From a virus, in IMG/VR virus record IMGVR_UViG_3300045051_001187, positions 1-20,174 of that record: 20,174 bases of DNA; one strand, 5' to 3'. The first letter of the stretch is position 1. The number at the start of each line of letters is the position of its first letter. Position numbers and translations under genes: made by a program. The notes under the pieces were generated by a model, which searched no databases, was not told the origin of the DNA, and saw only the letters and a program-made list of their open reading frames with translations. Below are positions 2,348 to 19,149 of the stretch, piece by piece.

Positions 2348-2722
2348 CTACTTCTGCGGCTTGAAGACTTCGGGGAGGTGCTTCCGGAGCTGGACCTTCA
2401 GCCAGGCGCGTTCGTCGTCGTCGGCCGACGACCACCAGGTCGTGAGCGCCGACTGGATGCGAAGCAGGTCCGGATCCACGGGTGCCGCCGGGGGCTCGTT
2501 CTGTCCGGCGTCCTCGAGGAGCATCGGACCCTCGCCGGTGAGAACCCACAGCGGCGAGATCCTCAAACGAGCAAGCGCCACAAGGAACGCGTCTGAAGGA
2601 CGCCGATCGCCTCTAATGTATTGATAAACCGTCGTGTTCGGAATTTCGAGAGCCTTGGCGAAGGCAAGCGGAGAGCCGTACCTGCTCGCAAGCAAAGCCA
2701 GTCTTTCCGACAAGTTACTCAT
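2348..2722 (-). CDS. XRE-family phage repressor
   Basis: The product is 124 aa. The N-terminal half is a lambda-repressor-like helix-turn-helix (SPLAFAKALEIPNTTVYQYIRGDRRPS, about residues 17-43), followed by a segment typical of short prophage repressors (ISPLWVLTGEGPM, 55-67). The C-terminal half is helical (DDDERAWLKVQLRKHL) and may mediate oligomerisation; there is no LexA-type Ser/Lys peptidase domain. The start ATG at 2722 has AAGGA upstream. The gene is divergent from the early operon and placed like Mu c, so it should keep the lytic genes silent. Palindromic sites overlap its own start codon and the early promoter, and a third similar site lies within its coding sequence, which suggests autoregulation. 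The three genes downstream may be expressed with it in the lysogen. Confidence 0.9.
   Translation of the reverse strand: MSNLSERLALLASRYGSPLAFAKALEIPNTTVYQYIRGDRRPSDAFLVALARLRISPLWVLTGEGPMLLEDAGQNEPPAAPVDPDLLRIQSALTTWWSSADDDERAWLKVQLRKHLPEVFKPQK
2559..2574. promoter_or_regulatory. Operator-like site O3 inside the repressor gene
   Basis: The sequence ATCCTCAAACGAGCAA matches the main operator-like palindrome at 13 of 16 positions and contains the identical 10-mer CTCAAACGAG. It lies 188 bp from the main site, close to 18 helical turns, a spacing compatible with looping. It may equally be a coincidence of coding sequence. Confidence 0.35.
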
Positions 2723-2730
2723 TTGAGAAG
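2715..2730. promoter_or_regulatory. Operator-like site O2 over the repressor start codon
   Basis: TTACTCATTTGAGAAG matches the reverse complement of the main operator-like palindrome at 13 of 16 positions. It covers the repressor ATG (2720-2722), and its centre is 32 bp (three turns) from that of the main site. Binding here could limit repressor synthesis. Confidence 0.5.
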
Positions 2731-3019: not shown

Positions 3020-3367
3020 ATGCCGCGCGCGTTGAAAGTTGAGGTCAGTTCCGGGGACGCCATCCGGCTGGCGCTCCTGTCGAAGGGATACACGCTGAAG
3101 GCGATCGCCAAGGAACTGGGGGTCACGCGTGGCGCGGTGACCGGGGTCATCCACGGGCACTGGAATTCCGACCGCATCTGGTCGCGCATCGCGAGTCTCC
3201 TCGGGCGTTCCGTACGGTCCATTCAGGGGCGGAAGGCCCTATCCCTCGTTAGCGTGACACGCGAAACGTCCGTGGTCAATGTCCGGGTTTCCAAGGTTCG
3301 GCGGCGCCGCGTGAACACTGGCGGCGAGCGGTCCGAGACGGTTGTCGAGCATCGTCGCATCGCGTGA
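3020..3367 (+). CDS. ner: Ner-like DNA-binding regulator
   Basis: The product is 115 aa. Residues about 11-45 form the Nlp/Ner-type fold seen in Mu Ner: an AIRLALLSKGYTLKAIAKEL helix pair followed by the recognition helix GVTRGAVTGVIHGHW. The C-terminal 50 residues are Arg/Val-rich and go beyond the length of Mu Ner (75 aa). The ATG at 3020 follows a GAGG site within the end of the preceding gene. Mu Ner shuts down both the repressor and the early promoters once the lytic cycle starts; the same role is likely here from fold and position. The stop overlaps a GTG that could start the next gene. Confidence 0.8.
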   Translation: MPRALKVEVSSGDAIRLALLSKGYTLKAIAKELGVTRGAVTGVIHGHWNSDRIWSRIASLLGRSVRSIQGRKALSLVSVTRETSVVNVRVSKVRRRRVNTGGERSETVVEHRRIA

Positions 3368-3375
3368 GGGTAGGG

Positions 3376-3813
3376 ATGGCACGTCCACGCAAGCCCGGCC
3401 TTCCGGGCCAGCTCGGGTTGTTCGATGCGGTCGCGGTGCTGGACCACGCCCGAGCATTCCCATCCCGGCTGAAGGCGATGCTGGCCGAAGACCTGGCGCA
3501 CTCGCCGTTCCGGCGGGACCAGGTCGCGGCGCGGATGAGCACTCTGCTGGGCGTTACCATCACGGTCGCCCAGCTCGACGCCTACACCGCGCAGACGAAA
3601 CAACTCCACCGTCTTCCCCTCGAGTACGTCCCGGCCTTCTGCGAATCGTGCCGCCAGTTCGGAGCCCTGCGCCTGGTGGCCGAGGAGTGCGGGTGTCGCC
3701 TCTGGCGTCCGGCGGACGCCCGCCAGGAGCTGGATCAGGTCGTGGAGGAACGTCGCCGGCTGGCCGAGCGGGAGAGGTCGCTTCGCGCCCTGACCGCTTT
3801 GGACGAGGTTTGA
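3376..3813 (+). CDS. Putative early regulator, YmfL/CII-like
   Basis: The product is 145 aa from ATG at 3376, with a GAGGGTAGGG purine tract upstream; GTG at 3364 is an alternative. The central region (ARMSTLLGVTITVAQLDAYT, then LPLEYVPAFCESC..., then LVAEECGCRL) resembles the pattern of YmfL-like and CII-like prophage regulators, where a short HTH is followed by a hydrophobic PxxYxPAF segment. A Glu/Arg-rich coiled coil ends the protein (about residues 112-140). The resemblance is by eye and moderate. It sits between the Ner-like protein and the transposase, where Mu-like phages carry variable early regulators. Confidence 0.65.
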   Translation: MARPRKPGLPGQLGLFDAVAVLDHARAFPSRLKAMLAEDLAHSPFRRDQVAARMSTLLGVTITVAQLDAYTAQTKQLHRLPLEYVPAFCESCRQFGALRLVAEECGCRLWRPADARQELDQVVEERRRLAERERSLRALTALDEV

Positions 3814-3815
3814 AG

Positions 3816-4298
3816 ATGGAGCATCGAGCGCGTTCAAACGGCTTCAACAGTGGTTCAAACCTTTTTCGTCGGGGTAGCTCAAGACCCGAGCGCCGGCGTG
3901 GGGTCGGAGATGTGGGTTCGAGTCCCGCCCCCGACACCCGGTCAGACAACCTGCTCGATGCGTTCCGCAGCGAACGGCCGCTGCAGCGCCTGGTCATCAC
4001 GCCGGCGCAGTTCCGGAACGCGTACCTCGCGGCCCCGCTTGGGGCGGACGGCTGGGCGAGCGTCCCGGACGTGGCCGCATTGCTGGGCATTCACGCGAAC
4101 GCGCTTTGCACGTGGGCCGCGCACCAGGGCATCGCCTACTTCGGCGACCTCGAGGTCGTGGGGCAGACGTGCAGCTCGGCGCGCATCCGCCTTCGCCATC
4201 TGGTGGCCCCGCACACGCTTCCGGCCATCGCGGCCCAGGTCGCGGCGGGCGTGGCGGTCTGCGCAGTGCTGTTCGCCCTGGCCGTGCTGGTGGGGTAG
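3816..4298 (+). CDS. 160-aa early protein with C-terminal membrane helix
   Basis: The ATG at 3816 has GAGG 7 nt upstream and follows the previous stop closely. The first 40 residues are Arg/Ser/Gly-rich, unlike a normal domain, and are encoded by the stretch that also folds as a tRNA-like structure (3868-3936). From about residue 46 a more ordinary sequence follows (LLDAFRSERPLQRLVITPAQFRNAYL). It includes an HTH-like segment (WASVPDVAALLGIHANALCTWAAHQGI) that reads like a first-helix/turn/recognition-helix unit. A hydrophobic C-terminus (about 138-159) may anchor it in the membrane. No good start codon with a ribosome site exists after the tRNA-like element, so this start is kept with reservation. 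Confidence 0.6.
   Translation: MEHRARSNGFNSGSNLFRRGSSRPERRRGVGDVGSSPAPDTRSDNLLDAFRSERPLQRLVITPAQFRNAYLAAPLGADGWASVPDVAALLGIHANALCTWAAHQGIAYFGDLEVVGQTCSSARIRLRHLVAPHTLPAIAAQVAAGVAVCAVLFALAVLVG
3832..3861. repeat. Direct repeat GTTCAAAC, two copies 21 bp apart
   Basis: GTTCAAAC is found at 3832-3839 and 3853-3860, two helical turns apart, with a related CTTCAAC between them. The core resembles the TCAAACG motif of the switch region. It lies just upstream of the tRNA-like element and within the coding frame of the 160-aa gene. Confidence 0.35.
3868..3936 (+). tRNA. tRNA-like element, probably degenerate
   Basis: The 69-nt sequence has a perfect 7-bp acceptor stem (GTCGGGG 3868-3874 with CCCCGAC 3929-3935) and a canonical TA at positions 8-9. 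The D stem is a perfect 4 bp (GCTC 3877-3880, GAGC 3888-3891). The T stem is 5 bp (GTGGG/CCCGC, one G-T pair) and closes a textbook 7-nt T loop, TTCGAGT. The anticodon arm is short: CCGG/TCGG closes a 7-nt loop CGTGGGG without U33, or five pairs close a 5-nt loop. The D loop AAGACCC lacks the conserved GG. ACCC follows instead of ACCA. It is probably a shrunken tRNA or a tRNA mimic; the anticodon cannot be assigned with confidence (TGG, Pro, if read from the 7-nt loop). Confidence 0.5.
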
Positions 4299-4300
4299 GG

Positions 4301-4558
4301 ATGAAGACGCCCGAACTCATCGACCTGCTGGCCGAGACGCTCGACGACATCGACCGGCTCTGCTGCAAGTCGGGCGGCACGTGCGGTCCCTGCGACCTGC
4401 ACCCCTGCCCGTGCCGCGACTGCGAGCTGGTGCACTGCCTGGGCCGTGGCAAGGGGGAGTGCCCCTCCATCCTCGACGACCAGGGCGAGTTGATCCCGGA
4501 GATCGACGTCGGCGACACGTACGACGAGGGAGACGAGGACGGGCTGAGGGTGGGCTGA
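4301..4558 (+). CDS. Cys-rich small protein, likely metal-binding
   Basis: The product is 85 aa from ATG at 4301, two nucleotides after the preceding stop, with GGGGTAGGG upstream. An N-terminal helix (ELIDLLAETLDDIDRL) is followed by nine cysteines at residues 21, 22, 28, 31, 36, 38, 41, 46 and 54, and by His34 and His45. This density suits binding of one or two zinc ions. The C-terminal 30 residues are strongly acidic (Asp/Glu). No family is recognised. A small zinc protein with an acidic tail in an early operon could bind a host protein, but that is only a guess. Confidence 0.7.
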   Translation: MKTPELIDLLAETLDDIDRLCCKSGGTCGPCDLHPCPCRDCELVHCLGRGKGECPSILDDQGELIPEIDVGDTYDEGDEDGLRVG

Positions 4559-4686
4559 AAGCCGCAGATGGTGGGACGAAAGTCGCAGGTGAAGTCGCAG
4601 ATGGCAGAGCGAACCCGCAGAAGCGAGACGATTCAGTTGGTTAAAGAACCATCCGTCTGGATGGAGTCTGTGGAAGTCGCAGATTT
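4559..4686 (+). repeat. Four copies of a AAGYCGCAGRTGR-like motif at the start of gene A
   Basis: Copies lie at 4559-4571, 4580-4592, 4592-4604 and 4674-4686 (the last only partial after the ATT). Two of the copies contain the two possible ATG starts of the transposase gene (4568 and 4601). They could be a protein-binding site cluster, a translational control element or a slippage product. Confidence 0.4.
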
Positions 4687-6583
4687 GCTCGGCCTTAATT
4701 CTACGTACACCCGAGACCTCGCGACGAAGCTCGGTTGGCGCTTCCAGGAGGCGACTTGCCGGGGGGGGCGCCGGAAGCTCTATCACCGCCAGGACGTCCT
4801 GGCCTACAAGTCGGTCCGGGACGGCGTTTCCCTGGGGACTCTGGACCCCACCCTCGCGGCCCCGGTTCCTGCCCCTGAACCCACCTCGGCGCTGTGGGCC
4901 TCCTTGTCGGAGTCTGCCCGCCAGGAAGCGCGCGAGCGGTTCGAGGTCGTCCAGGCCCTGACCACTTGGCGCCGCGGGAAGCTCGGAAACGTGGCGACCT
5001 TCGCGGCGACCTGGTCGGCCGAACACCCGGACCGCGCGGTGAGCGCGCCGACGGTCTACGCCTGGGAGCGGGACTGGAAGGCCGGCGGGCTCGAGGCGCT
5101 GGTGTCCGGGTACAAGCTGCGGGCGGCGGAAGGGCCGAAGGTGCCCGAGCCGCTCGCGCAGTACTTCGACGGCCTCTACCTGTCGCAGGAGCAGCGCTCG
5201 ATCCGCCTGTGCGCCGAGCTGACGCGCATCCGTGCCAAGGAACTGGGCGTCGAGTGCCCGTCGCTGAAGACGTGGGAGCGGCACGTGCAGGACATCCCGA
5301 GGGCGACGCGCGTCGGCCTGCGGGAGGGTAACAAGGCGCTGGACGACAAGTGTCTGGCGTACCTGCGGCGCGACCGGGAGGAGCTGCGGTCGAACGAGAT
5401 CTGGGTTGCGGACCACCACCAGGTCGACGTGGCCGTGCTGGGCCCGAGCGGCAAGCCTGTCTTCCCGTGGGTCACGGTGTTCATGGACGTCCGGTCGTGG
5501 GCCTACGTGGGCTGGAACGTCTGCCTGTCCCCGAACTCGGACAGCATCGTCACGGCCTTCAAGCGGGGCGTGCAGCGGCGGGGCATCCCGGCCGAGCTGC
5601 AGCTCGACAACGGCAAGGACTTCCGGTCGCTGGACTTCGCCGGGGGCCGGATGGGCAAGGTCCGGCTCGAGCTGAACCAGGCCGCGTTCGAGTCGGTCGT
5701 GGGGCGGCTCGGCCTGGCCGTCCGGTGGGCACGCCCCTACAACGCCCGTTCGAAGGAGATTGAACGGACGTTCCGCATCCTGAAGGAGCGGTTCAGCCGC
5801 CTGTGGTCGACGTACCGCGGCGGGAACACGCGCGAGCGGCCGGAGCGGCTGAAGCACCTGCTGAAGAAGACGGGCGAGATCCCGACGCTCGAGCAGTTCG
5901 ACGGGCTGTTCGGAGAGTGGGCCGAGTACGTCTTCAACGGCATGGCCAGCGACGCCCGGGGCATGGAAGGGCGGACGCGCGACGAGGTGTTCCGGGCGTG
6001 CCTCGGCGAGACGCGCTGGGCGCCCCCGGCCGAGCTGGCGCTGCTATGCATGAAGACGAAGGTCGCGAAGGTCGGCCGGAACGGCGTGACGCTGTTCGGT
6101 GACCAGCAGTACTCGGGCCTGCAGTTGTTCGAGCACAAGGGCGAGACGGTGACGGTCCGGTACGACCCGCTGGACGTGGACCGCGTGTACGTGTTCGACC
6201 TCGAGGGCCGCTTCATCTGCGACGCCGAGAACCTCGGCTTCGCCGGCTGGCACATCACGGCCGAAGAGATCCGGGAACGCGAGCGACTGTACCGCCAGGA
6301 AAAGGCGCTCGTCACCAACGCGGCCCGCGCCCTCGAGGCCCAGGACGAGGAGCCGGACTATCTGCGCCGGGTCATCGCGGCCCGCAAGGCGGACGGGTCG
6401 GAAGCCGGCCCGGGAGATCCGCCGGAGCCGGGGCGCCAGGTCGTGCGTCCCGTCGCCTGGGGCCGGAAGCCGATGGCGAAGGCGGTCGGCTCGGACCTGT
6501 CGGACATCACGGACGAGGACATCGCGCGGGGTTTCCGCCTGTTGCGGGCCCGCGACGAAGCGAGAACGCAAGAGGAATTCTGA
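4568..6583 (+). CDS. A: Mu-like DDE transposase (A protein)
   Basis: The product is 671 aa, close to MuA (663 aa). It catalyses strand cleavage and transfer for phage integration and replicative transposition. An N-terminal winged helix (SVWMESVEVADLLGL...LYHRQDVL, about residues 29-78) matches the MuA end/enhancer-binding fold. A further HTH-rich region (about 115-240) should bind the end sites. The RNase H-like core carries the likely catalytic triad D282 (VADHHQVDV), D347 (LQLDNGKDF) and E399 (SKEIERTF). A beta-barrel follows (about 497-550). The C-terminal tail (DITDEDIARGFRLLR) probably contacts the B ATPase or ClpX-like unfoldase. The start is uncertain: ATG 4568 gives the longest frame, whereas ATG 4601 has a better upstream AGGTGA. 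Confidence 0.95.
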   Translation: MVGRKSQVKSQMAERTRRSETIQLVKEPSVWMESVEVADLLGLNSTYTRDLATKLGWRFQEATCRGGRRKLYHRQDVLAYKSVRDGVSLGTLDPTLAAPVPAPEPTSALWASLSESARQEARERFEVVQALTTWRRGKLGNVATFAATWSAEHPDRAVSAPTVYAWERDWKAGGLEALVSGYKLRAAEGPKVPEPLAQYFDGLYLSQEQRSIRLCAELTRIRAKELGVECPSLKTWERHVQDIPRATRVGLREGNKALDDKCLAYLRRDREELRSNEIWVADHHQVDVAVLGPSGKPVFPWVTVFMDVRSWAYVGWNVCLSPNSDSIVTAFKRGVQRRGIPAELQLDNGKDFRSLDFAGGRMGKVRLELNQAAFESVVGRLGLAVRWARPYNARSKEIERTFRILKERFSRLWSTYRGGNTRERPERLKHLLKKTGEIPTLEQFDGLFGEWAEYVFNGMASDARGMEGRTRDEVFRACLGETRWAPPAELALLCMKTKVAKVGRNGVTLFGDQQYSGLQLFEHKGETVTVRYDPLDVDRVYVFDLEGRFICDAENLGFAGWHITAEEIRERERLYRQEKALVTNAARALEAQDEEPDYLRRVIAARKADGSEAGPGDPPEPGRQVVRPVAWGRKPMAKAVGSDLSDITDEDIARGFRLLRARDEARTQEEF

Positions 6584-6595
6584 CGGAGGTCGATC

Positions 6596-7573
6596 ATGGG
6601 TGAGGCGGCGATGGCCCTGGGCACAGTAGCGGTTCCGAGCATCGACGAGGTGCGCTCCAGGCTGCGGGAGTACCTGATCTCCGAGTCGGGCCGGACGCAG
6701 GCCTCGGTCGCGAAGTCGATCGGGATCTCGGCGAGCGCCCTGTCGTCGTGGATGGGCGGGACGTACCGGGGCGACGTGGAAGCGCTGGCCTCGAAGATCG
6801 GCTCGTTCCTGTCGATCGAGGGATGCCGTGCGGTGGCGCCGAAGACGTCGACCTTCGTGTCCACGGCGATCGCCGAGCAGGTCATGGAGGTCTGCCGCTT
6901 CGCGCACATCCACCGGGACATCGGCCTGGTGTACGGCGAGGCGGGCATGGGCAAGACGGTGGCGCTGCGGCGCTACTGCCGCGAGCACCGGGACGCGATC
7001 TACGTCCGGTGCGACCCGTCGTCGTCGTCGGCCCAGGCGACGCTCGAGGCCGTGGCGATCGCGATGGGGCGGCGTCCCCGGTGGGGCGGGCTTCGGCGGT
7101 TCCTCCAGGAGCTGGTCGACGCGCTCGAGGAGACGGGGCGCGTGCTCATCCTGGACGAGGCGCAGTTCCTGACGCTGCGCGGGCTCGAGACGCTGCGCGC
7201 GCTGCACGATCGGGCCGAGATCGGCATGGTCCTGTGCGGCAACTTCGAGGTCTTCAGCCAGCTCCACGGCGAGGGCAAGGCGAGCTTCGCGCAGCTCTTC
7301 AGCCGGGTCGGGATTCGGCGCCAGGTGACGCTGACGGGGGCGACGGCCGAGGACGTCATGGGCATCGCCCGCCAGATCTCGAGCGACCTGGCGGCCGACT
7401 GCGAGGAGTACCTGGTCGCCAAGTCCCGCGAGCGAGGCGGCCTGCGGCGCATGGTGAAGGTGCTGCGCCTGGGCTTCGAGATGGCCAGCGGCGAGGGCCT
7501 GCCGGTCAGCGTGCGGCACCTGCGCACGGCCGAGGTGATGCTGATCGGAGGGAAGGCGGAGGCGCGGCGATGA
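6596..7573 (+). CDS. B: Mu B-like AAA+ target-capture ATPase
   Basis: The product is 325 aa; MuB has 312. The ATG at 6596 has GGAGG 6 nt upstream. An N-terminal HTH (about residues 17-60: REYLISESGRTQASVAKSIGI then SALSSWMGG) is followed by the ATPase core. The Walker A motif is GEAGMGKT (114-121) and the Walker B motif LILDEAQ (184-190), with the sensor-like MVLCGN at 211-216. MuB polymerises on DNA, selects target sites, activates the transposase and gives target immunity; this protein should do the same with the adjacent A. It lies 12 nt after A, and its stop overlaps the ATG of the next gene. Confidence 0.95.
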   Translation: MGEAAMALGTVAVPSIDEVRSRLREYLISESGRTQASVAKSIGISASALSSWMGGTYRGDVEALASKIGSFLSIEGCRAVAPKTSTFVSTAIAEQVMEVCRFAHIHRDIGLVYGEAGMGKTVALRRYCREHRDAIYVRCDPSSSSAQATLEAVAIAMGRRPRWGGLRRFLQELVDALEETGRVLILDEAQFLTLRGLETLRALHDRAEIGMVLCGNFEVFSQLHGEGKASFAQLFSRVGIRRQVTLTGATAEDVMGIARQISSDLAADCEEYLVAKSRERGGLRRMVKVLRLGFEMASGEGLPVSVRHLRTAEVMLIGGKAEARR

Positions 7574-8414: not shown

Positions 8415-8647
8415 TGGTTCATTTCAACACGGCGCGGTTCAAGCGGGACCTGGACCGGGTGCTGGACGAGCTGCGGCCGATGGCCCTGCCGTCCGAGGTC
8501 CAGGAGTCGATGCGGCGGTTGCGGACCCTGATGGGTCCGGAGGACGCGTACACCTACTACGAACCGGAGGTTTCCGATGGGGATCAGGGACAAGCTGAAG
8601 CGGGTGCGGCTGGTGGGCCCGAAGCTGGTGAGCTGGGAGCAGGTTGA
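8414..8647 (+). CDS. Small early protein overlapping gam, 77 aa
   Basis: The ATG at 8414 overlaps the previous stop. The first 52 residues (FKRDLDRVLDELRPMALPSEVQESMRRLRTLMGPEDAYTYYEPE) look like a genuine helical domain. The last 25 residues are Gly/Ala/Glu-rich and are encoded within the 5' end of gam in another frame. The overlap is about 71 nt, larger than elsewhere in this operon, so either the tail is real dual coding or a frame difference shortened the true gene. No function can be assigned. Confidence 0.55.
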   Translation: MVHFNTARFKRDLDRVLDELRPMALPSEVQESMRRLRTLMGPEDAYTYYEPEVSDGDQGQAEAGAAGGPEAGELGAG

Positions 8648-9092
8648 CCAGCACCTGCTCGAGCTGGGCCGGCTGGACATGCAGATCGAGGGGGTCGAGG
8701 CACGCCTGACCGAGGTCTGCAATCAGGCCAAGGAGAAGGCGTCGGCCGAGGGCAGGCCGCTCATCCAGCGGCGCGAGCAGCTCGAGCGCGAGGTCAAGGA
8801 GTTCGTCGAGGCCAGCGCGGATCAGATGGCCCCGGCGCGTAGCCTGGTCCTGCAGTTCGGGACGGTCGGGCTGCGCAAGGCGAAGCGCCTGCACATCAAG
8901 AAGACCGTCGACACGGTCCGTCGCCTGCGCGAGCTGGGGATGCTGCAGTACCTGCGCATCAAGGAGGAGCCGGACAAGGAGGCCCTGCGCGAGCTGGGCG
9001 ACGAGATCCTGGAGAAGGTCGGGATCACCCGGAAGGAGGAGGACGCGTTCTTCCTCGAGGTGAACCGCGAGAAGGTGCGCGCGGCGGGGTAG
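8577..9092 (+). CDS. gam: Gam-like host-nuclease inhibitor
   Basis: The product is 171 aa, the usual length for Mu Gam (174 aa). The ATG at 8577 has GGAGG 6 nt upstream. Long amphipathic helices (residues about 20-85, with EREVKEFVEASADQM) form the coiled coil of the Gam/Ku-like dimer. They are followed by a beta strand segment, VLQFGTVGLRKAKRLHIK, and a C-terminal helical region with YLRIKEEPDKEALREL. Mu Gam is a Ku homologue that binds double-strand ends and blocks RecBCD-type exonucleases, shielding infecting DNA. The match is clear by pattern and by position in the early operon. Confidence 0.9.
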   Translation: MGIRDKLKRVRLVGPKLVSWEQVDQHLLELGRLDMQIEGVEARLTEVCNQAKEKASAEGRPLIQRREQLEREVKEFVEASADQMAPARSLVLQFGTVGLRKAKRLHIKKTVDTVRRLRELGMLQYLRIKEEPDKEALRELGDEILEKVGITRKEEDAFFLEVNREKVRAAG

Positions 9093-10850: not shown

Positions 10851-11915
10851 ATGAAGCGTTCGTGGCTGGTGCTGTTGATGCTGGCGGTCCTCGGGTCGAC
10901 GGGCGCGGCCGGGGCGGATGTCCTGACGCAGTCGCGGCTGGACCAGGTGAGCTGGGCGACGAAGTCGAACCGCATCCTGCTGCCGGACCTGCTGCTGAAG
11001 TGGGACCGCTGGATGCACACGGCGGTCGCGGACGTGACGGCGCTGAAGGCGGTGGCTGCGGCGGACCGGTACCACGGCATGGTGACGCTGGTCGTCGCCG
11101 GCGCGGACGGCGCCCCGCACCTTTACGGCTTCCACGGCACGTCGACGGCCTCGAACGACAACGACAAGGTCGTGGCGGGAAACGCGGGGGCCGGCCGCTG
11201 GCTGCGGCTCGATGACATCGTGGACGGCTCGATCAGCCTGGACGACCTGGGCGCCAACGACTGCGCGGCCAACCAGGTCATCAAGCGCAACGCGGGCGGG
11301 ACGGCCTGGGAATGCGCGGCCGACGTCGATACGGACACGGACACGACGTACACCGCGGGGTCCGGGCTGGCGCTGACGGAAGGGGCGTTCAGCCTGCTGA
11401 TGACGTGCAGCGAAAACCAGATCCTGAAGTGGAACGGCACTGCCTGGGCATGCGCGGCCGACGTCGATACGGACACGGATACGACGTACACCGCGGGGTC
11501 CGGGCTGGCGCTCACCGAGGGGGCGTTCAGCCTGCTGACGACGTGCAGCTCGGGACAGGTCCTGCGCTGGAACGGGACCGCATGGGCCTGTGCCGACACG
11601 ATCGAGTCGAGCACGGCTTCGGACGGGGACGGTGACGACTCGATCACCCTGAATGCCCAGTCCGGCCAGGTCACCACGAAGAGCCTGACGACCGCGGGGA
11701 GCAGCGAGTACACGCTGACGGTGGTCAACTCCTGGGTCGCCAGTGCGAGCACTCCGATCGCTCTGAACATGACTGCCCTCGGATCCAATACCGCTGGCGA
11801 GCCGCTGGTATTGACGACGACCGCAGGCACGGGTCAGTTCGTCACCGTCATCAAAAACGTCGACGAAGCCGCCCTGAACGGGACGCTGACGCTGTCGTTC
11901 ATCGTGGGCAAGTAG
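10851..11915 (+). CDS. Secreted repeat protein in the lysis block
   Basis: The product is 354 aa, from ATG 10851 with GGAGGG upstream. Residues 1-22 are a classic signal peptide (MKRSW, hydrophobic core, AGA cut site). A domain of about 110 residues follows. Two 46-aa repeats occupy 155-246, each starting with a Cys and reading CAADVDTDTDTTYTAGSGLA through to WNGTAWA, with partial copies before and after. The C-terminal 100 residues are beta-rich and Thr/Ser/Gly-rich. Such WNGTAWxC-type repeats are common in tail-fibre and surface proteins. The signal peptide and the location between endolysin and holin-like genes are unexpected for a virion protein. Function unknown: surface adhesin, envelope-modifying or exclusion protein are options. 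Confidence 0.8.
   Translation: MKRSWLVLLMLAVLGSTGAAGADVLTQSRLDQVSWATKSNRILLPDLLLKWDRWMHTAVADVTALKAVAAADRYHGMVTLVVAGADGAPHLYGFHGTSTASNDNDKVVAGNAGAGRWLRLDDIVDGSISLDDLGANDCAANQVIKRNAGGTAWECAADVDTDTDTTYTAGSGLALTEGAFSLLMTCSENQILKWNGTAWACAADVDTDTDTTYTAGSGLALTEGAFSLLTTCSSGQVLRWNGTAWACADTIESSTASDGDGDDSITLNAQSGQVTTKSLTTAGSSEYTLTVVNSWVASASTPIALNMTALGSNTAGEPLVLTTTAGTGQFVTVIKNVDEAALNGTLTLSFIVGK
11313..11588 (+). repeat. Two tandem 138-bp repeats within the secreted protein gene
   Basis: Unit one runs 11313-11450 and unit two 11451-11588, each starting TGCGCGGCCGACGTCGATAC. They differ at only a few sites in the first half and more in the second, and a decayed third copy begins at 11589. The period of 138 bp equals 46 codons, so copy-number change would keep the frame. 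Confidence 0.85.
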
Positions 11916-13319: not shown

Positions 13320-13856
13320 ATGCTGTCGAAGCGCCGCAAGCACCACAAGATCGCGACGTTCCCGACGGAAGTCCAGTCCGCGGTCAACGACCTGCTGGCG
13401 GGCGGCGTGACGTACGAGGAGATCACCCACCGGCTGCGGGACCTGGGCCACCAGGTGGGGAAGTCGTCGGTCGCGCGGTACGGCAAGGAGTTCGCGGCGC
13501 AGCTCGAGGCGGCGCAGAAGACGAAGGACTTCATGCGCACGCTCGTCGACGAGGTCGGCATGGACCCGCTCGAGCTGGAGAGCGGGGCGATCAAGCTGTC
13601 GCTGCATCGGGCGGTCGAGACCGTGATGAAGGCCGAGGCCACGGGGGACGAGGACCCGATGGAGGCGATCCGGGCCATCGGCCTGCTCGCCAAGTCGTCC
13701 GCCCACGTCGAGACGGTGCGGATGAAGTTCCGGGCCGAGCAGAAGGCGAAGGCGGCCGAGGCGGCGGACCAGGTCAAGGCGATCGCGAAGAAGGGCGGAC
13801 TCTCGGACGAGATGATCCGGGAGATCGAGGAGAAGGTGCTTGGCATCGCAGCCTGA
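13320..13856 (+). CDS. DUF3486 protein, small terminase-like (Mu gp27)
   Basis: The product is 178 aa. An N-terminal HTH region (FPTEVQSAVNDLLAGGVTYEEITHRLRDLGHQVGKSSVARYGKEF, about residues 15-59) is typical of DUF3486. It is followed by a long helical part (about 60-165) with KAEATGDEDPMEAIRAIGLLAKSSAHVETVRMKF. Mu gp27-type proteins are thought to recognise the pac region and work with the large terminase next door. The large terminase gene overlaps its end by 17 nt, which supports coordinated synthesis. Confidence 0.88.
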   Translation: MLSKRRKHHKIATFPTEVQSAVNDLLAGGVTYEEITHRLRDLGHQVGKSSVARYGKEFAAQLEAAQKTKDFMRTLVDEVGMDPLELESGAIKLSLHRAVETVMKAEATGDEDPMEAIRAIGLLAKSSAHVETVRMKFRAEQKAKAAEAADQVKAIAKKGGLSDEMIREIEEKVLGIAA

Positions 13857-15201
13857 CAAGGGCGGGTACTTCCTGCCGTACCAGGAGCGGTGGCTGGCCG
13901 ACCGCTCGCGGCTGAAGATTGCCCAGAAGAGCCGGCGCATCGGGTGGACCTACGTCCAGTCGTACGAGGACTGTCGGGACGCGGTGCGCGCGGACGGCGG
14001 GATGGACGTGTGGTTCAGCTCGGCCGACCAGTCCGCGGCCGAGGAGTACATCCGCTACTGCGAGCGCTGGATCAAGATGTTCGACGCGGCCGCGAAGTCG
14101 ATCGGCGAGTGCGTCATCGACAGCGAGCGGTCCGTGAAGGCCCTCGTCATCGAGCTGTCGAACGGCAAGCGCATCAACGCCCTGACGAGCAACCCGAAGC
14201 GGTTCCGGTCCAAGGGCGGCAAGGTCGTGCTGGACGAGTACGCGTTCCATGACGACCAGGACGCCATGTGGCGCGCGGCCTCCCCGGCCATCACGTGGGG
14301 CTACCCGCTGCGCGTCATCAGCACGCACAACGGCCGGTCGTGCCGGTACTACCGCATGGTCTCGGACGCCGAGAAGGCGGGGCCGAAGAGCAAGTGGAGC
14401 CTGCACACGGTGACGATCGTCGACGCCGTGAACGGCGGCCTGGTCGACAAGATCAAGGGGCGGCCGGCGACGGAGGACGAGCGCCAGGCGTTCCTGGAGG
14501 AGTGCCGCGAGATCGCGGGCGACCAGGAGACGTTCGACGAAGAGTTCATGTGCATCGCCCGGGACGGCACGCTGGCCTGGCTGGACTGGTCGCTCATTAC
14601 GTCGTGCGAGTCCGAGGACGCGGGCCGGCCGGAGCTGTATCAGGGCGGGCCGTGCTTCGTCGGCCGCGACATCGCGCGGCGCGGCGACTTCGCGATCCAG
14701 TGGGTGTCCGAGCAGGTCGGCGACGTGCTGTGGACGCGGGAGATCGTCGAGCTGAGGAACGCTTCGTTCGCGGCGCAGGACCTGGAGTACTCGCGCCTGG
14801 TGAACGCCTACCGTGTCATCCGTGGCTGCTTCGACCAGACGGGCATGGGCGAGAAGGTGGTCGAGGACGCGCAGCGCATGTACGGCCGGTACGCGGTCGA
14901 GGGCGTGCTTTTCAACGGGCCGGTGAAGCAGGAGCTGGCGACTGCGGGGCGCCAGGCGTTCGAGGATCGGAAGGTCCGGATCCCGCCGTCCCGCATCGTC
15001 CGCGAGTCGCACCACAGCGTGCGGCGCGTGGTGACGGCGGCCGGCAACCCGCGCTTCGACGCGGACCGGAACGAGGCCGGGCACGCCGACCACTTCTGGG
15101 GCCACATGCTGGCGATCCACGGCGCGGCCACGCCGGCCGTGGGCCGGGTCGACTTCACGCCGGCGGCGCGTCGGCGCTTCACCACGGCGGGGGCGTACTG
15201 A
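13840..15201 (+). CDS. Large terminase subunit (Mu gp28-like)
   Basis: The product is 453 aa, starting at a TTG (13840) preceded by GAGGAGAAGG and overlapping the small subunit. The ATPase has the variant Walker A KSRRIGWT (30-37) and Walker B VVLDEYAF (129-136). The nuclease domain has likely metal-binding acidic residues D277 (FVGRDIARRGD), D332 (CFDQTGMG) and D417 (HADHFW). It translocates phage DNA into the prohead and cuts it headful-style, including a piece of host DNA in Mu-like phages. Its stop overlaps the portal start as TGATG. Length and motif order match the family. Confidence 0.93.
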   Translation: MASQPDKGGYFLPYQERWLADRSRLKIAQKSRRIGWTYVQSYEDCRDAVRADGGMDVWFSSADQSAAEEYIRYCERWIKMFDAAAKSIGECVIDSERSVKALVIELSNGKRINALTSNPKRFRSKGGKVVLDEYAFHDDQDAMWRAASPAITWGYPLRVISTHNGRSCRYYRMVSDAEKAGPKSKWSLHTVTIVDAVNGGLVDKIKGRPATEDERQAFLEECREIAGDQETFDEEFMCIARDGTLAWLDWSLITSCESEDAGRPELYQGGPCFVGRDIARRGDFAIQWVSEQVGDVLWTREIVELRNASFAAQDLEYSRLVNAYRVIRGCFDQTGMGEKVVEDAQRMYGRYAVEGVLFNGPVKQELATAGRQAFEDRKVRIPPSRIVRESHHSVRRVVTAAGNPRFDADRNEAGHADHFWGHMLAIHGAATPAVGRVDFTPAARRRFTTAGAY

Positions 15202-17964: not shown

Positions 17965-18082
17965 GTTGAAGTGCCCCCGGAGCTCCACCCGGGCAGCGGC
18001 GTCGTGGCGTAAAGATGGGGTGGCTCCCTCGCCACGACACACACAACAGAATGAATTCTACGGGATCGGAGGTCGGGTGTGA
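17954..18082 (+). CDS. Possible 42-aa reading frame after the MuF toxin gene
   Basis: ATG 17954 lies inside the MuF 3' end and the frame closes in the GTGA overlap with the protease start. The peptide is basic and polar (MGGELKCPRSSTRAAASWRK...), without a recognisable fold. It would be the only gene in a place where an immunity gene could sit. It spans the hairpin at 18001-18038 and has no convincing ribosome site, so it may not be translated. Confidence 0.2.
   Translation: MGGELKCPRSSTRAAASWRKDGVAPSPRHTQQNEFYGIGGRV
18001..18038. other. Hairpin in the gap between MuF and protease genes
   Basis: GTCGTGGCG (18001-18009) and CGCCACGAC (18030-18038) form a perfect 9-bp stem with a 20-nt loop that may hold a further GGG/CCC pairing. 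There is no T run after it, so it is not a classical terminator. It could be an RNA processing or attenuation site that lowers expression of downstream head genes, or a scar of cassette exchange. Confidence 0.5.
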
Positions 18083-19149
18083 AGAGGTTCCTCGAGAACG
18101 CCATCCCGCTCGTCCTCGCCGAGGGCGAGGCGGCCGCGCCGAAGTGGATCCGGGTCGTACCGTCGGGCACGGTCCGGACGGTTTCCTATCCGCCGTTCCA
18201 GGTGGACCGGGGCGTCATGGACCGCATCATCGCGGCGTACAAGGCGGCCGGCCTGGACGTGGTCATCGACTTCGAGCACCAGACGCTCGGCGGGGACTGG
18301 TCCTCGCCCGACGGAACCGCGCCGGCGGCCGGCTGGATCAAGGACCTGGAGCCGCGTGACGACGGCCTGTGGGCGCTCGTCGACTGGACCGAGCGCGGCG
18401 GCCGCGCCGTGGCGGCCCGCGAGTACCGGTACCTGAGCCCGGTGCTGCTGCCCGGGAAGTCGCCGGCCCGCCTGCACTCGGTCGCCCTGACCAACACACC
18501 GCAGATCCGGGGCATGGCGCCCCTGGTGGCCAAGGACCTGAACGAGGAGAACGACATGAAGACCCTGAGGGAGGTCCTCGGGCTGGCCCCGGACGCGACG
18601 GACGAAGCGGTCGTCGCGGCCGTCCAGATCCTGGAGGACGGCCGAAAGGCCACGGTGCTGATCCTGGGCCTGAAGCCCGAGGCGCAGGCGTCGGAGATCG
18701 CGGCGGCGGTCAAGGACCTGATGGCGCTGAAGGCGTCCGCGGTCGAGAGCCTGGCGCTGTCGCAGGCGGTCAAGCCCGAGGAGCTGCGGGGCGCGGTCAT
18801 CGCGCTGCGGAACCCCGCGAACACGGTCCCGGCCGTGGACTTCCTGGCGCTGAAGGCGCGCCTGGACGACCGCGACGCCGAGGACCTGGTGGCGAAGGCC
18901 ATCGCGGACGGCAAGGTGACGCCGGCCCAGCGCGACTGGGCGAAGGGCTACGCGTGCAAGGACCGCCCCGGGTTCGAGGCGTTCGTGGCGCAGGCCCCGG
19001 TGGTCGTGGCGTCGGGTCGCGTGGTCCCGCCGGCGGCGTCCGGCGGCGGCACGGGCGCGGGCCTGACGGAGTACGAGGCGATGGTGTGCGGGCAGCTCAA
19101 GCTGGACCCCAAGAAGTACCAGGCCGAGAAGGCCGGGCAGGAGGGCTGA
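18079..19149 (+). CDS. I: Mu I-like prohead protease with scaffold domain
   Basis: The product is 356 aa from GTG 18079, with GGAGG 6 nt upstream. The protease part (about 1-150) has VVIDFEHQTLGGDW with likely catalytic His67, APAAGWIKDLEPRDDGLWALVDWTERG, EYRYLSPVLLP and the segment ARLHSVALTNTP with a candidate nucleophile Ser134. The C-terminal half is helical and Ala/Glu-rich, as scaffolds are, and ends in a conserved-looking LKLDPKKYQAEKAGQEG. In Mu, gpI processes the head proteins and the scaffold gpZ is made from an internal start within I; the same layout is seen here at 18556. Confidence 0.9.
   Translation: MKRFLENAIPLVLAEGEAAAPKWIRVVPSGTVRTVSYPPFQVDRGVMDRIIAAYKAAGLDVVIDFEHQTLGGDWSSPDGTAPAAGWIKDLEPRDDGLWALVDWTERGGRAVAAREYRYLSPVLLPGKSPARLHSVALTNTPQIRGMAPLVAKDLNEENDMKTLREVLGLAPDATDEAVVAAVQILEDGRKATVLILGLKPEAQASEIAAAVKDLMALKASAVESLALSQAVKPEELRGAVIALRNPANTVPAVDFLALKARLDDRDAEDLVAKAIADGKVTPAQRDWAKGYACKDRPGFEAFVAQAPVVVASGRVVPPAASGGGTGAGLTEYEAMVCGQLKLDPKKYQAEKAGQEG
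18556..19149 (+). CDS. Internal-start scaffold protein (Mu Z-like)
   Basis: An ATG at codon 160 of the I gene (18556) is preceded by GAGGAG with 6-nt spacing (18544-18549), an unusually good ribosome site inside a coding region. The product would be 197 aa beginning MKTLREVLGLAPDATDEAVVAAVQ, which is the helical scaffold region without the protease. Mu makes its scaffold gpZ in this way. The prediction rests on the internal site and the family precedent. Confidence 0.7.
   Translation: MKTLREVLGLAPDATDEAVVAAVQILEDGRKATVLILGLKPEAQASEIAAAVKDLMALKASAVESLALSQAVKPEELRGAVIALRNPANTVPAVDFLALKARLDDRDAEDLVAKAIADGKVTPAQRDWAKGYACKDRPGFEAFVAQAPVVVASGRVVPPAASGGGTGAGLTEYEAMVCGQLKLDPKKYQAEKAGQEG

Follow-up and report, generated by a model that had tools for sequence, protein, structure and literature searches.

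A tRNA-derived element with lost decoding features between early genes of a Mu-like phage

The window analyzed here, a viral record of 20,174 bases, has its genes arranged as in Mu-like phages, and at positions 3868-3936 it holds an element that is homologous to tRNA, has lost decoding features, lies in noncoding DNA, and is absent from the relatives found. We consider it moderately probable that this element is an acquired, degenerate tRNA gene, unable to decode and carried as accessory cargo. The coordinates of the element and of the surrounding genes are collected in Table 1.

Table 1. Features of the tRNA-like element and its surroundings (window coordinates unless a related locus is named)
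Feature	Position	Strand	Details
Repressor-like HTH gene	2348-2722	leftward	
HTH gene	3020-3367	rightward	
phrog_2345 transcriptional regulator, early gene upstream of the element	3364..3813	+	phrogs E=3.2e-24
TTCAAAC repeats directly upstream of the element	3806..3861	.	3808 -, 3833 +, 3854 +; variant CTTCAAC 3842
Open frame across the element	3816..4298	+	coding-like only from ~3942; no family match
tRNA-like element, from the acceptor through discriminator base A	3868..3936	+	ARAGORN; Rfam RF00005 46.6 bits
Acceptor stem, 5' strand GTCGGGG	3868..3874	+	7/7 with CCCCGAC 3929-3935; pair probabilities 0.86-1.0
D arm GCTC-AAGACCC-GAGC	3877..3891	+	4/4 pairs; 7-nt loop without GG; sequence and Rfam alignment
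Anticodon arm CCGGC-GTGGG-GTCGG	3893..3907	+	5 pairs (one G-U), 5-nt loop
T arm GTGGG-TTCGAGT-CCCGC	3912..3928	+	5/5 pairs (one U-G)
Discriminator A, then CCC, not CCA	3936..3939	+	sequence
Orphan gene for a small Cys-rich protein; the second of the two genes in the inserted stretch	4301..4558	+	
Mu-type transposase A	4568..6583	+	phrog_310 E=1.7e-112; Pfam Mu-transpos_C
MuB-like ATPase	6596-7573		
Gam-like protein	8577-9092		
Terminase	13840-15201		
Mu-like protease	18079-19149		
tRNA Arg-ACG call in related locus L144	10197-10271	-	ARAGORN
tRNA Thr-TGT call in related locus L145	8919-9003	-	ARAGORN

The first-pass annotation had pointed to a tRNA-like fold at these positions that would be hard to credit to chance, and had named ARAGORN and a covariance model as checks. 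Both call a tRNA, and both the coordinates and the anatomy proved correct. The RF00005 model aligns over its full length (1-71) with a score well above the curated cut-off of 29 bits and with E=2.8e-7 over all Rfam families, and tRNA is the sole RNA family matched in the window even when E-values up to 1 are admitted. The ARAGORN call spans 3868-3938, and when the same program was run on 12.1 Mb of sequence obtained by dinucleotide shuffling of the window, it made 8 calls, or about 0.013 expected per window, a rate far above the covariance-model E-value. Together, the E-value and the shuffle rate rule out a chance resemblance. Folding energy was also lower than in shuffled sequences (RNAfold z = -2.4). 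An assembly chimera is unlikely, since the element is flanked by phage genes on either side.

The anatomy is that of a complete cloverleaf, as had been described: perfect acceptor (7/7) and D (4/4) stems, a full T arm with the loop TTCGAGT, and TA at tRNA positions 8-9. All 21 pairs can form, the variable loop has 4 nt, and the departures from the tRNA norm lie in the loops. For the anticodon arm, ARAGORN offers an alternative with four pairs and a 7-nt loop, CGTGGGG, containing the anticodon TGG. In energy predictions for the bare RNA, the cloverleaf (-33.3 kcal/mol) lies 2.4 kcal/mol above the minimum-energy fold (-35.7 kcal/mol), which keeps the acceptor and T arm and joins the D and anticodon regions as one hairpin.

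That the element is not a normal decoding tRNA, as first judged from its D loop without GG, its short anticodon arm, and the absence of U33, is borne out. The D loop reads AAGACCC and lacks G18G19, and instead of a 7-nt anticodon loop with U33 we find either GTGGG (5 nt) or CGTGGGG, with G at position 33; there may be a small sequencing deletion within this loop. The encoded 3' end is A-CCC rather than CCA, and enzymatic CCA addition after trimming is possible. ARAGORN labels the element Pro(TGG); allowing introns changes the label to His(GTG), by means of an implausible intron wrapping round the test fragment. Bacterial Pro tRNAs carry C1-G72, unlike the acceptor of the element, which begins G1-C72. 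Read with positions 32-33 missing, the 5-nt loop gives the anticodon GTG (His); however, most bacterial His tRNAs have G-1/C73, while the element has C before G1 and A at position 73. Codon usage shows no need for a Pro or a His tRNA of this kind: CCA (4/3667) and CAT (6/3667) are rare among the phage codons.

We also examined the open frame that runs across the element, using codon statistics for which twelve phage genes served as the training set and comparing the scores with those of 795 coding windows of this phage. Its downstream part, 3942-4295, is coding, with a log-odds score of +0.44 and a third-position G+C of 0.91. In contrast, 3816-3941 is noncoding in every frame; the open frame scores -0.93 there with a third-position G+C of 0.57, and none of the 795 coding windows scores as low. 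An open frame over DNA of this type is expected in 61% of shuffles, so that its presence is no evidence of coding. The tRNA thus lies within a stretch of about 130 nt without coding signal and not clearly in a gene, which makes the earlier description of the fold as embedded in an early phage gene doubtful. ATG 3816 stands 2 nt past the upstream stop codon with GAGG, a plausible ribosome-binding site, a few bases upstream, and GTG 3912, within the T arm, is the only other common in-frame start ahead of the coding-like part. The product had no family match by hmmscan, and no relatives of the overlapping-frame protein were found in viral contigs or phages. Its last residues are hydrophobic and could possibly form a membrane helix.

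The DNA just upstream of the element is regulatory-looking and noncoding, and contains a cluster of TTCAAAC repeats. Six exact copies are present in the window against 0.61 expected, all in the left 4 kb (972, 2294, 2334, 3808(-), 3833, and 3854); they are perhaps repressor or transposase binding sites. Another motif, CTCAAACGAG, occurs inside and beside the repressor-like gene, close to the divergent promoter region, at 2562-2571, 2718-2727(-), and 2750-2759 (two exact sites and one with a mismatch); these are operator candidates, with a count that is not above chance when mismatches are allowed. At the left end of the window, a leftward gene pair (262-1877, -) encodes a 328-aa protein and a 210-aa membrane protein, with a G+C content of 55-58% against ~69%. 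These two genes had no significant family match, and defence models had no significant match to the left-end genes; the pair is perhaps cargo or a defence pair. Further right, the protein segment DTDTDTTYTAGSGLALTEGAFSLL is repeated in the 354-aa product of 10851-11915 (window 11312-11640).

Comparison with related phages indicated that the element is peculiar to the present one among those found. The nearest relatives are distant, with transposase identities of at most ~36%, and searches with the transposase, MuB, and regulator returned relatives at 23-48% identity, all of which lack a tRNA at the corresponding place. In the two relatives that could be checked, L155 and L156, the phrog_2345 regulator gene directly abuts transposase A, whereas ~750 nt separate these genes in the present phage and comprise the tRNA plus a pair of small orphan genes. 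Across 125 loci of related Mu-like phages (1.19 Mb), ARAGORN found no tRNA at the corresponding place; its two calls among them both lie >3 kb downstream of MuB. No close relative of the phage was found, and such searches may omit near-identical records, so the absence applies to the distant relatives found. A pattern search for the element in viral contigs gave no match, and a terminase search found no relatives there. BLAST of the element against ~400 genomes did not find a parent tRNA: the matches covered mostly the T-arm/acceptor half (~89-93% over 28 nt), and the tRNAs at the matched places were Leu according to ARAGORN. A pattern combining the acceptor with the start of the D arm also found no match. 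In the literature, no tRNA genes were reported for the Mu-like phage SfMu (PMC4406740), and in Mu-like phages of Pseudomonas the accessory genes are located mainly in the left arm (PMC4378225).

Under the degenerate-gene interpretation, a tRNA gene would have been gained by transfer, together with the two small orphan genes, between the phrog_2345 regulator and transposase A. The D-loop GG, a normal anticodon loop with U33, and the encoded CCA would then have been lost while the stems remained pairable. The element would be expected to be transcribed within the rightward early transcript and to be neither charged nor used by ribosomes, and it is presumably without function. RNase P may still cut the early transcript at 3868; the element is a plausible substrate because the acceptor/T-arm helix is intact and followed by A-CC. 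Against decay, all 21 pairs are intact despite several loop changes. By rough arithmetic with an assumed number of changes, the chance that three to five evenly spread changes would leave all 42 stem bases untouched is ~0.08 to 0.01, a slight hint that the fold is under selection or that the element arose recently.

Selection on the fold would be explained if the element were a functional tRNA mimic, engaged by RNase P and perhaps by RNase Z or EF-Tu, a reading that we regard as unlikely but worth serious consideration. Its acceptor and T-arm pairs are intact with high pair probability, A73-C74-C75 stands on the 3' side, the loops have changed while the stems have not, and the position amid the early genes, directly downstream of the TTCAAAC cluster, would suit such a role. 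However, the lack of the element from all 125 related loci gives no sign of conservation, and the D and anticodon regions favor a different fold. In the mimic reading, a cut in the early transcript after the regulator and ahead of the genes that follow would set the ratio of the regulator to the later early products. That cleavage by RNase P at 3868 acts as a processing switch, dividing the regulator message from that of the genes behind it, is doubtful; should translation start at ATG 3816, such a cut would also decide whether the downstream protein can be made.

We find it improbable that the element is an odd but working phage tRNA, one that provides or substitutes for a host tRNA and has a changed anticodon loop to escape host anticodon nucleases. 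Anticodon-loop changes in mycobacteriophage tRNAs have been proposed to evade these nucleases (PMC10264068), and both ARAGORN and RF00005 still recognize the element. The published cases are loop mutations, however, whereas the element has also lost part of the loop, U33, and the D-loop GG for contact between the D and T loops; the remaining loop has 5 nt or begins with C-G. In addition, the identity bases misfit Pro and most His tRNAs, with no codon need for either. A decoy absorbing tRNA-cutting or tRNA-sensing defence proteins is more improbable still. The early position and the intact tRNA-like outline would be compatible with it, but the element is found in one phage alone with no conservation, and the decoy is weakest for enzymes that cut anticodon loops, the target of most known anticodon nucleases, because this loop is the damaged part. 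Thus, among the remnant, mimic, and decoy options put forward in the first-pass annotation, the remnant fits best and the decoy fares poorly. Finally, a single real gene at 3816-4298 with a coincidental tRNA likeness is highly implausible, since the well-placed ATG 3816 and the lone alternative start at GTG 3912 are set against the tRNA-model E-value, the noncoding statistics of 3816-3941, and the frequency of open frames in shuffles.

The favored interpretation, a degenerate acquired tRNA gene, can be set beside known systems. Like the tRNAs encoded by mycobacteriophage cluster C1 and by coliphages T4 and T5, the element is a phage-borne tRNA gene recognized by ARAGORN and RF00005; it differs in being a single copy, in having a D loop without GG, a short anticodon loop without U33, and no CCA, and in its place between early genes of a Mu-like phage, which holds no tRNA in the 125 related loci. 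With tRNA pseudogenes and remnants of prophages and genomic islands it shares a tRNA origin and lost decoding features. Remnants at integrase attachment sites are 3' fragments, whereas the element is full length with every stem pairable, and no attachment-site origin is expected because the phage integrates by transposition. It also resembles tRNA-like structures in messenger RNAs that are recognized by RNase P, with an acceptor/T-arm mini-helix, a purine-CC 3' side, and a location in a region expected to be transcribed; here processing is putative.

What phage tRNAs do in counter-defence is a matter of current interest, and a tRNA with its fold preserved but its decoding ability lost would be a natural test of whether phages retain RNAs of tRNA shape for purposes besides translation. 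For the element described here, an ordinary decayed tRNA is the likelier reading. The analysis also illustrates that an open frame without stops can conceal a noncoding element in G+C-rich phage DNA.
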